Origin: Myxococcales bacterium
GTDB lineage: Bacteria; Myxococcota_A; Polyangia; Polyangiales; Polyangiaceae
Direction: 5' to 3'
Length of the DNA: 37,050 nucleotides
Assembly (NCBI GenBank): GCA_025351875.1
Contig: JANXVA010000289.1
Location: 1-37,050, forward strand
The translations under genes were made by a program, and so were the position numbers. Numbering within the stretch: position 1 is the stretch's first letter; every line of letters begins with the position of its first letter. A model generated the notes under the pieces. The model ran no database searches, was not told the origin of the DNA, and saw only the letters and a list, made by a program, of their open reading frames with translations. Below, piece by piece: positions 170 to 5,541 of this stretch.

Positions 170-406
170 GCCGCGAGCAACGCCGCGCAGATCGCCTTAA
201 TTCCCAGGCTTCACCCGTCACGATCGGATCTCCACCCTGACCGGAGGCATAGTGAAGTGCCTCCGCCATCCGGCGCTCCCAGCGCGTCCGTTCCACCGCC
301 CTCTCATCAGCCGCGGAGAGGTAGCGTGTTTCCTACGTCGCCCCCGTCGAGGCCTTCGCTGCGGCCCCCCAAGGATCTTCACGAGCACGAGGCGCTCGTT
401 CTCCGC

Positions 407-562
407 ATGAAAGGACTGTCCTGGCCGCCGACCTTCGACCAGCTGAACGCGGCGCGGCGCGAGTTCGCCCTTCTGATGCATCCCGACAAGGGAGTGGAGA
501 TGCCTGGTCTCGCCGCGCTCAACGACGGGTGCGATCGCCTCAAGGCGCGGCTCGGCGGCTAG
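407..562 (+). CDS. Small J-domain-like protein or C-terminal remnant
   Basis: MKGLSWPPTFDQLNAARREFALLMHPDKGVEMPGLAALNDGCDRLKARLGG carries the HPD motif; the ORF track extends it to 8 but the upstream part overlaps an antisense CDS. Confidence 0.45.
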   Translation: MKGLSWPPTFDQLNAARREFALLMHPDKGVEMPGLAALNDGCDRLKARLGG

Positions 563-1625: not shown

Positions 1626-2654
1626 ATGTGGAGAGCGCGCGGGGGAACACAGCTTGCGGTCATCGCGTGCGCGCTCGCCGCGGCCGCGATCGGGCACGTC
1701 GCGTGCGGCGGCGTGAAGCCAGTGCCGCGTCCGCCGCCAGCCGCCGTGGCGGTCGCCTCCGTAGCGCCTTCGGCTCCGGATGCATCCGCGCCGGCAGAGG
1801 GCGACGCCGGCAACGCTTCGCGCGCGACGCGACTCGTTGAACGTCTTTTTCTCGGAGAATCGATCACGGTCGACCTGGCGGCGCTCGACGAGCGCGAGCG
1901 CGAGGACTTCGCGGCCCTGGTCGACGCGCAGCTGGTCGCCGCTCCGGCGATGATGCCCATCCGGCCGGTGCTCGGCGCTCTCGCTCGCGCGTGGAGCCGG
2001 CGGGCCGAGGCGATCGTGGCGAGGTATCTGGTGCACCAGGACCATGCGCTCGCCGAGCACGCGCGGCTCATCGTGCGCGCGAACGGGCTCTCCTCCGCGG
2101 CCGTTGCCATCGCGGTGCTGCCGAAGGATCCCGACCCGGACGCCCGAGCGAACGTCGCAGACGCCGCGAGTCGTGCGCCCGACGCGAGCGTCGCCTCGCT
2201 CGAGCACCTCTGTCGTTCGATCCCCGCGGGCTCGGACGCCGACTGGACGTGCACGGCCGCGCTCACCCGTCTTGGCAGCGCGACCGCACGCGCGGCGCTC
2301 GCCGCGAAGACGCGAGCGAGCTGCGCGACCGCTCGGCCGTCGGAGGTGATCGCGAGGTTCACGTGGCTCGCTGCGGAGGTCGGCACGCGCGCCCCCTGGC
2401 GCGAGCTCGGCGAGCAGATTCGCAACACCCGCGCGATGCCGATCGTTCTCTGCGTCGACAACTTCGATGCACGCAGCGACAGCGGCTGCAAGACCGTGGG
2501 CCACTACGCGCCGATCGGGGATGCGTTCCTCCGCGAGGTGGTCGGGCTCTACGGCCTGAAGGTCTCGTTCGCGCTGGACGGGAACGCCAAGACGTTCACG
2601 AGCGCGCAGCGGGCGGAGGTCCTTCGTCTCCTCTCGGCACCGTCTTCGCCGTAG
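1626..2654 (+). CDS. Hypothetical lipoprotein
   Basis: Start MWRARGGTQLAVIACALAAAAIGHVACGG (lipobox-like); GC3-rich ORF to 2654. Confidence 0.7.
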   Translation: MWRARGGTQLAVIACALAAAAIGHVACGGVKPVPRPPPAAVAVASVAPSAPDASAPAEGDAGNASRATRLVERLFLGESITVDLAALDEREREDFAALVDAQLVAAPAMMPIRPVLGALARAWSRRAEAIVARYLVHQDHALAEHARLIVRANGLSSAAVAIAVLPKDPDPDARANVADAASRAPDASVASLEHLCRSIPAGSDADWTCTAALTRLGSATARAALAAKTRASCATARPSEVIARFTWLAAEVGTRAPWRELGEQIRNTRAMPIVLCVDNFDARSDSGCKTVGHYAPIGDAFLREVVGLYGLKVSFALDGNAKTFTSAQRAEVLRLLSAPSSP

Positions 2655-2663
2655 CGCGAAGAG

Positions 2664-2805
2664 TCACGGCGCCGGAAGATCGCCGAGATGCTCGACGATG
2701 CGGTGCACGAGCCCGTAGGCGCACGCCTCCTTCGCGTTCATCCAGAAGTTCTTCCCGGTGTCGCGCGCGATCGTCTCGTAGTCCTGTCCCGTCGCGCGAG
2801 CGAAC
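2664..2805 (-). pseudogene. ClpP C-terminal fragment
   Basis: Reverse complement reads RTFARATGQDYETIARDTGKNFWMNAKEACAYGLVHRIVEHLGDLPAP*, matching the ClpP C-terminal pattern (TGQ..E.I.RDT.r...m.a.EA..YGLVd.i); the rest of ClpP is absent. Confidence 0.75.
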
Positions 2806-3130
2806 GTGCGCGCGCTGGGGGCCGACCACGTCATCGACAAGTCGAGCGGAGATCTCTGGCGGCAGGCCGAGCGCCATTCTCCGCGCGGCTACGACGTCGT
2901 GCTGGACGCGAACGGCGTCGAGACTCGCGGAGGGAGCTTCAGCCACCTCGCGCCTACGGGGCGACTCGTCGTCTACGGGTTCGCGACGATGATGTCGCGC
3001 GGCAAGGACCGACCGAGCTGGCCCAAGCTCGCGGTCGACTGGCTGCGGACGCCGCGCTTCGGTCCGCTCTCGATGACCAACGAGAACAAGAGCGTCATGA
3101 CGTTCAATCTCTCGTACCTCTTCGCCGCGC
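2806..3130 (+). pseudogene. Internal/C-terminal fragment of an MDR-family (VAT-1/quinone oxidoreductase-like) dehydrogenase
   Basis: VRALGADHVIDKSSGDL...PRGYDVVLDANGVETRGGSFSHLAPTGRLVVYGFATMM...NKSVMTFNLSYLF; catalytic domain and C-terminal end missing. Confidence 0.75.
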
Positions 3131-3240
3131 TGAGCCGGTCTTCGACGGATGCGAGTGCCGAGCGGGGCCCAAGACCTCTCGGCGTGGCGTGTCTCTTCCT
3201 CGAGTCCGTCGTCCGCGTCCGGACGACCCTGGAGGAAGCC

Positions 3241-3594
3241 ATGCTCGAGATTTTTCGTAACGGCGGCGTGGGAATGTACCCGACCGCGCTCTTCGGTCTC
3301 CTCTTGCTCGCGGTCGCGGCCCGGTACGCGGTCCGCCCCGAGAGCCGATGGATTCCGCTCCAGATCTCGCTGGCGATCGTGACGCTCACGGTCGGAGCGA
3401 CCAGCTTCGTGAGCGGTCTCATCGCGACGACGACCCATCTCGAGGAGATCGGTGATCGCGCCGGCATCATCGGAGCCGTCGGGTTCGGCGAGTCGCTGAA
3501 CAACGTGGCGCTCGCGCTCGCGCTCGTCGCCATCGCCGCCATGGCCACCACCGTGGGGGTGGCGCGAGGGACGCGACAGCAAGCCGAAGCCTGA
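3241..3594 (+). CDS. Small integral membrane protein, MotA/TolQ-like topology
   Basis: GGAGGAAG just upstream of ATG at 3241; MLEIFRNGGVGMYPTALFGLLLLAVAARYAV... with three hydrophobic segments. Confidence 0.65.
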   Translation: MLEIFRNGGVGMYPTALFGLLLLAVAARYAVRPESRWIPLQISLAIVTLTVGATSFVSGLIATTTHLEEIGDRAGIIGAVGFGESLNNVALALALVAIAAMATTVGVARGTRQQAEA

Positions 3595-3637: not shown

Positions 3638-4288
3638 ATGCGAGCGTCTATCGTCGGAACAGCCTTGTTTTGTGGGCTCTTCGTGTGGGGCGCAGCGTGC
3701 GGTGGGACATCGTCCACCGCGACAGAAGTGTCCGATTCCGGCACACCCGGCACGGATGCGAGCCCGCTCGTGGACGCAGCCAGCCTGACCGACGCGGCCG
3801 ACGGCAGCACGCCGAACGACGCCAACGTCGCGTGCACCGACTGCGTGACCGGCACGCTGAGCTGGGGTGACAATGGCGGCCTCGTCGCCTTCCGGGACGA
3901 GAGCGCGCTCGCGACGTGCAGGGATTTTCAGCGCAAGCGCTCGGCGCCGAGCGACGGCGGGTCGTTCTCGTGCGCCACGCAGCTCGGCGCGTGCGACGCG
4001 GGTCCCGTCGCGGTCGGGGAGGTCGAGCGCGCGCTCGCGCACCCGGACGTCGTCGCCGCGTTCGCGGCCGTGACGACCCCGGTCTTCGGCGTGGACAGTC
4101 GCCCCGTCGACGGCACCGTGTTCGAGATCACGCGGAACGGGAAATCGATCGACGTCGGCAGCGACTGCGGCGCGTCGTCCGCGCCGGCGTGCGTCCCGGT
4201 CCCGCCCGGCGTGGCCGCGCTCGCCGCCGTGCTGAAGTCGCTCGACGCGCAGGAGCTCGCGAAGCCGGCCTGCGACGCCTTCGACTAG
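3638..4288 (+). CDS. Hypothetical lipoprotein
   Basis: [23 protein letters not shown] lipobox followed by an S/T/D-rich linker. Confidence 0.75.
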
Positions 4289-5445
4289 GGCCTGGCGGCG
4301 CGCGAGATCTTGATGCCCTTGATGGTGACCGGCGTCGTCGGCTTGTCGGACCCGTCCTTGGGCACGCTCGCGATGTCGCGGACGATCTTGGTGGGCGCGC
4401 ACTCGCCGAAGATGGTGTACCCGGCGTCGAGGTTCGGTGCGGGCTCGTCCGTGATGAAGAACTGCGCGCCGTTGGTGTTCGCGCCGCGGTTCGCCATGCA
4501 CAAGAGGCCTGCGCGATCGTGCTTGGCGCCCTCCCAGATCTCGTCCTTGATCACGTAGCCGGGCTCGCCCGTGCCGTTGCCCTTCGGGTCGCCGCCCTGG
4601 ATCATGAAGCCCTTGATGACGCGATGGAACGAGGTTCCGTCGTAGGCGGGCTTCGTCACCCACTTGCCGCTCGCCGGGTCCTTCCACGTGCGCTCGCCGG
4701 TGGCGAGGCCGATGAAGTTCGCGACCGTGACGGGCGCCTTGTCGTCGAAGAGCTTGCACTCGATCGCGCCCATCGACGTGTCGATCTTCGCGACGAGCGC
4801 GCCGGTGCCCTTCACGTTCTTCGTGGCGTCTGCGAGCGTCCACTTCCCGGCGAGCGGGTCGTCGGCGCCCTCCTTCGCTGCGCTCGGCGCCGCGGCGCCC
4901 TTGGTGACCGCGAGCAGCTCGATCTCGAAGACCAGCGTTGCGTTCGCGGGGATGACCGGCGGATGTCCGCGCTCGCCGTAGCCGAGGCTCGCGGGCACGG
5001 TGAGCTTGCGCTTCCCGCCGACCTTCATCCCGGGCACGCCCTGGTCCCATCCCTTGATGACCTGCTGAGCGCCAATCTTGAAATCGAACGGCTTGTCGTG
5101 CTTCTTCGAGCTGTCGAACTCGGCGCCGTTCGTGAGCGTGCCCCTGTAATGGACCGTCACCTTGTCGCCGACGGCCGCCTCGTCGCCGCTCCCGACGGCG
5201 AGGTCCTCGATGCCGAGCTTGCCGTCCGCGGCCGCGGACGACGCGGTGGTCGTGCCGGCGTCCGTGCCGGGCGGCGCCACGTCGTTGCCGCGGATCGCGG
5301 CAAACGCGCCGAGCGCGACGACGGCGCCGATCACCACGATCGCCGTCCAGGGCGTCTCTCCGGGCTTCGGCTTCGGCTGCTCGGTCGCCGTTGCGCTCGC
5401 GGGCTTGGGGTCGGACTTGCTGGCTTCGCGCGGTTTCTTGTTCAC
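4285..5445 (-). CDS. FKBP-cyclophilin fusion peptidyl-prolyl isomerase with N-terminal TM anchor
   Basis: FKBP block [18 protein letters not shown]...[29 protein letters not shown]; cyclophilin block [28 protein letters not shown]...[17 protein letters not shown] start inferred at 5445. Confidence 0.93.
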
Positions 5446-5541
5446 GGCGCCAGTAGAGGCGGCGCGCGCACGTATGTAAATACCGACGCGCTGGGCTAGG
5501 GCGTGTGCGACGCGCACGACACGTGCCTCGCGAACGTTGCC

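Follow-up and report, generated by a model that had tools for sequence, protein, structure and literature searches.

Gene remnants at bacterial deletion and inversion joints are partial genes that have intact counterparts in relatives, end sharply and share little or no sequence at the joint, and the locus described here is of the same make. It brings together pieces of two unrelated genes. For one of them, Listeria monocytogenes ClpP1 (PDB 4jcq, 6sfx) is the nearest solved structure to the intact homologue, and ClpP1 of this Listeria type has an Asn where the catalytic Asp is expected (PMC9765437, PMC12900304). The type of the lost gene has this Asn at the third triad position in common with L. 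monocytogenes ClpP1, whereas just the last 48 codons are kept here, without the catalytic Ser and His. For the other gene, the solved structures that come closest to the intact MDR of a relative genome (G011) are VAT-1-like MDRs (PDB 6lhr, 6k9y), in contrast to which only the middle of the protein is left. The window, that is, the whole stretch of 37,050 bases that was analysed, corresponds to the whole of one contig (contig 502) of a myxobacterial draft genome (8.93 Mb, 805 contigs, completeness 94.75%, contamination 3.96%). The features around the joint are as follows.

1626 to 2654, plus strand: ORF of 342 aa converging on the clpP remnant
2664 to 2810, minus strand: 3′ remnant of a clpP1-type gene, 48 codons and stop
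2806 to 2810: breakpoint zone (GTGCG), in which the homologies to ClpP and to MDR touch or overlap
2806 to 3124, plus strand: internal remnant of a VAT-1-like MDR gene
3124 to 3240: second breakpoint, followed by DNA without MDR homology up to the next gene
3241 to 3594, plus strand: small membrane-protein gene, 117 aa, apparently intact

On the minus strand, positions 2810 to 2664 encode RTFARATGQDYETIARDTGKNFWMNAKEACAYGLVHRIVEHLGDLPAP-stop, with the stop codon at 2664-2666. This translation matched the Pfam CLP_protease profile (E 1.6e-9) at positions 143-181 of 182 only, and it forms the end of longer ClpP genes in G005 (two genes), G004 (two genes), G006, G011 and G001. At the DNA level, positions 2667-2810 shared 80-89% identity with four genes that are intact or nearly so, and all four of these closest matches terminated at exactly 2810. 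The initial annotation had recognized a ClpP-like 3′ end on this strand, and translation, profile match and DNA homology all bear this out; it had placed the cut at about 2805 and counted about 47 residues, and while the truncation itself stands, the figures are to be replaced by 2810 and 48 codons. The Ser-His-Asp/Asn catalytic set is not present in one chain, since Ser and His fall in the missing part and only the Asn is kept. The piece is thus a remnant and not a working ClpP. Judged by its homologues, the lost clpP belonged to the Listeria-ClpP1 type. In genomes of the genus, a ClpP of this type, whose third triad residue is Asn, occurs patchily, and sometimes twice, besides a usual ClpP (L010, L011, L012, L013); several genus members miss the ClpP1-type gene altogether. 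The ORF at 1626-2654 had no good homologue among 37 relatives, 11 of them in the same genus.

To the right of the joint, the plus strand encodes from 2806 onwards VRALGADHVIDKSS...MTFNLSYLF, which is the middle of an MDR. Positions 2806-3123 matched Pfam ADH_zinc_N_2 and ADH_zinc_N (cofactor-binding domain, partial), and a profile built from 42 intact homologues matched at states 181-289 of 342 (E 1.9e-57), with no match past YLF, so that about 180 profile positions are missing at the N-terminus and 53 at the C-terminus. Homology to the genes of relatives starts at 2805-2817, and the DNA similarity of three intact MDR genes from three genomes ceases at 3124. The missing C-terminus was not found in 3124-3240. 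Gapped matches to L090 and L102 had pointed to a decayed C-terminus past 3124; this candidate was ruled out, as a profile of the C-terminus gave 0.6 bits and an alignment tolerant of frameshifts scored no better than shuffles. Having neither the N-terminal catalytic domain nor the C-terminal segment of a VAT-1-like MDR, the piece is a remnant without both ends. That it starts inside an MDR cofactor-binding domain had been read correctly from the sequence; a further cut after MTFNLSYLF had also been proposed, rightly, although at about 3130 instead of 3124.

The ORF track shows the frame 2806-3594 as one gene, in which the MDR piece had been suspected to be fused with a separate membrane-protein gene at 3241. 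Our results agree with this suspicion. Homologues of the membrane protein begin at 3241, the best of them 58-61% identical and with the same start residue, and the start context is GGAGGAAGCC-ATG, with GGAGG just upstream. The frame is a chance read-through from the MDR piece into the separate gene. A functional fusion protein, composed of the MDR fragment and the membrane domain, would fit with a frame that is open from 2782 to 3594 and with the codon bias kept in the MDR part, but this part would come without the N-terminal domain and the C-terminus, the strong ribosome-binding sequence stands ahead of the ATG at 3241, where the membrane-protein homologues start, and long chance open frames are plentiful in this high-GC window; we regard such a protein as very improbable. 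Slighter still is the chance of a gene birth by rearrangement, with the frame giving rise to a novel chimeric protein, anchored in the membrane and built from the MDR piece. The gene displayed here is hence a false fusion, and neither this clpP nor this MDR gene is to be counted as present.

Relatives hold the ClpP and MDR genes full-length and at separate loci, which upholds the view of the initial annotation that two unrelated truncated genes abut here in opposite orientation. Neither the joint nor ClpP and MDR as neighbours was seen in any relative, and a synteny comparison found no relative with the same arrangement and intact genes. The nearest spacing, in G006, was 60 kb, with both genes on the same strand; in three single-contig genomes the genes lie 1-2 Mb apart. 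Divergent neighbours from which a simple deletion could be traced were looked for in relatives and not found. Both genes are patchy across the genus and the family, indicating that both are dispensable and that their loss is tolerated. In the genus members that were compared, hardly any window gene has retained its neighbours, and genes are reordered along the whole window. With gene identities of up to 80-89%, any one window gene tends, in each relative, to have its match on a different contig. No relative had a conserved gene order around the joint that would display the ancestral arrangement, in keeping with how little gene order is retained among members of the genus. Literature searches on synteny in myxobacteria, on microhomology and on chimeric contigs yielded nothing specific to this case.

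We also searched the own genome at the protein level with full-length ClpP and full-length MDR from relatives. In this 94.75% complete draft, the lost parts of both proteins were not found, and the intact clpP and MDR genes that had been thought worth looking for elsewhere did not appear: the search gave only the pieces at the joint and distant paralogues. The only other ClpP (contig 135) is 37% identical and a more usual ClpP, and the other MDRs are 29-38% identical. As the missing halves are absent from the assembly, no reciprocal half exists on another contig; such a half would often remain after an inversion with both ends kept or after a simple mis-join.

Two further observations were made elsewhere in the window. 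The minus-strand gene at 4285-5517 carries an FKBP domain and a cyclophilin domain in one protein, and these two parts match different contigs or places in relatives; by this comparison the fusion may be unique to this genome. Elsewhere, immunophilins that combine both families are known. At about 400-562, plus strand, a short frame (MKGLSWPPTFDQLNAARREFALLMHPDKG...) looks like part of a J-domain (HPD) and is perhaps another remnant.

At the joint itself, the homologies of ClpP and MDR overlap by no more than about 6 bp. The GC-only sequence had been put forward as microhomology, and this is possible, as CGTGCG is common to the joint and one MDR homologue; at a GC content of about 67-70%, however, a shared stretch of 3-6 bp is weak evidence. 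Elsewhere in the assembly, exact matches to the joint region reached no more than 17 bp, and no exact repeat of at least 21 bp was found at the joint in the contigs binned into this genome. We found no terminators at the joint and no repeats linking its two sides, and the 27-base joint pattern had no exact match in viral contigs, where none was expected. To the left of the joint the composition is not unusual for the contig, and there is no compositional break: the tetranucleotide distance was 0.146, with all 32 other segments of the same size differing equally or more, and GC was 0.70 versus 0.69. G005 was the nearest relative to the left as well as to the right of the joint (cobW 87%, ClpP 89%, gene at 8.5 kb 83%). 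The second break lies 315 bp from the joint, and both breaks fall within 460 bases.

Both pieces differ from intact genes mainly at third codon positions, contain no stop or frameshift and keep their codon bias, and their divergence falls within the range seen between intact genes. This implies either that the truncation is recent relative to the divergence of this genome from G005 and G011 or that the joint is artificial; un-decayed remnants are predicted both by a recent scar and by an assembly chimera. The initial annotation had named these two possibilities together, and its first half now appears the likelier. In the case of a chimera, the assembler would have wrongly connected two or three pieces, drawn from a single organism or from several, at 2806-2810 and perhaps at 3124. 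The draft state of the genome, with its many contigs and some contamination, would permit this, and the remnants running un-decayed right to the joint, in an arrangement found in no relative, would suit it. Graph assemblers, however, join on shared words longer than about 6 bases, and with a longest match of 17 bp a repeat-driven mis-join is unlikely. The even composition and the absence of the severed gene halves from other contigs also speak against a chimera, which would need two mis-joins 315 bp apart; two breaks so close together suit piecemeal loss better than one mis-join. We therefore consider an artefact unlikely, although it is the most serious competitor. A lesser one is that the MDR piece of about 315 bp is a short foreign or ectopic insertion flanked by the clpP remnant and the membrane-protein gene, and not what remains of a resident gene. 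Both MDR ends are indeed missing, no flanking MDR sequence is left, and no MDR gene was seen beside the membrane-protein homologue in relatives. Yet the own genome has no intact donor copy, no mobile-element protein occurs among the scanned window genes, and the closest relatives of the piece are genes of the same genus, as for a native gene, making an insertion improbable.

Taken together, full-length homologues in relatives set against abrupt ends in the window, the lack of an exact repeat of at least 21 bp or of a compositional break at the joint, the second break nearby and the absence of the missing parts from the assembly favour a real chromosomal scar, probably the result of two dispensable genes having recently been lost; the presence of the joint in the cell, the succession of events and the route of repair are what we infer from these data. 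A break-and-join would have removed the 5′ parts of the clpP1-type and VAT-1-like MDR genes and joined the leftovers at 2806-2810, and a second deletion or join at 3124 would have taken the MDR 3′ end. The break-and-join could have been a deletion between genes that had become divergent, or else an inversion or a translocation with loss afterwards; a deletion after the genes were brought into divergent order and an inversion with later loss are both compatible with the data. No function would be expected of either remnant.

The locus matters little in itself; as a recent scar, it adds one data point on gene loss and on the loss of gene order in the genus. Compared with known gene remnants at bacterial joints it has nothing distinctive: it is an ordinary gene-remnant joint, in which two remnants happen to adjoin, each with its lost 5′ side towards the other.
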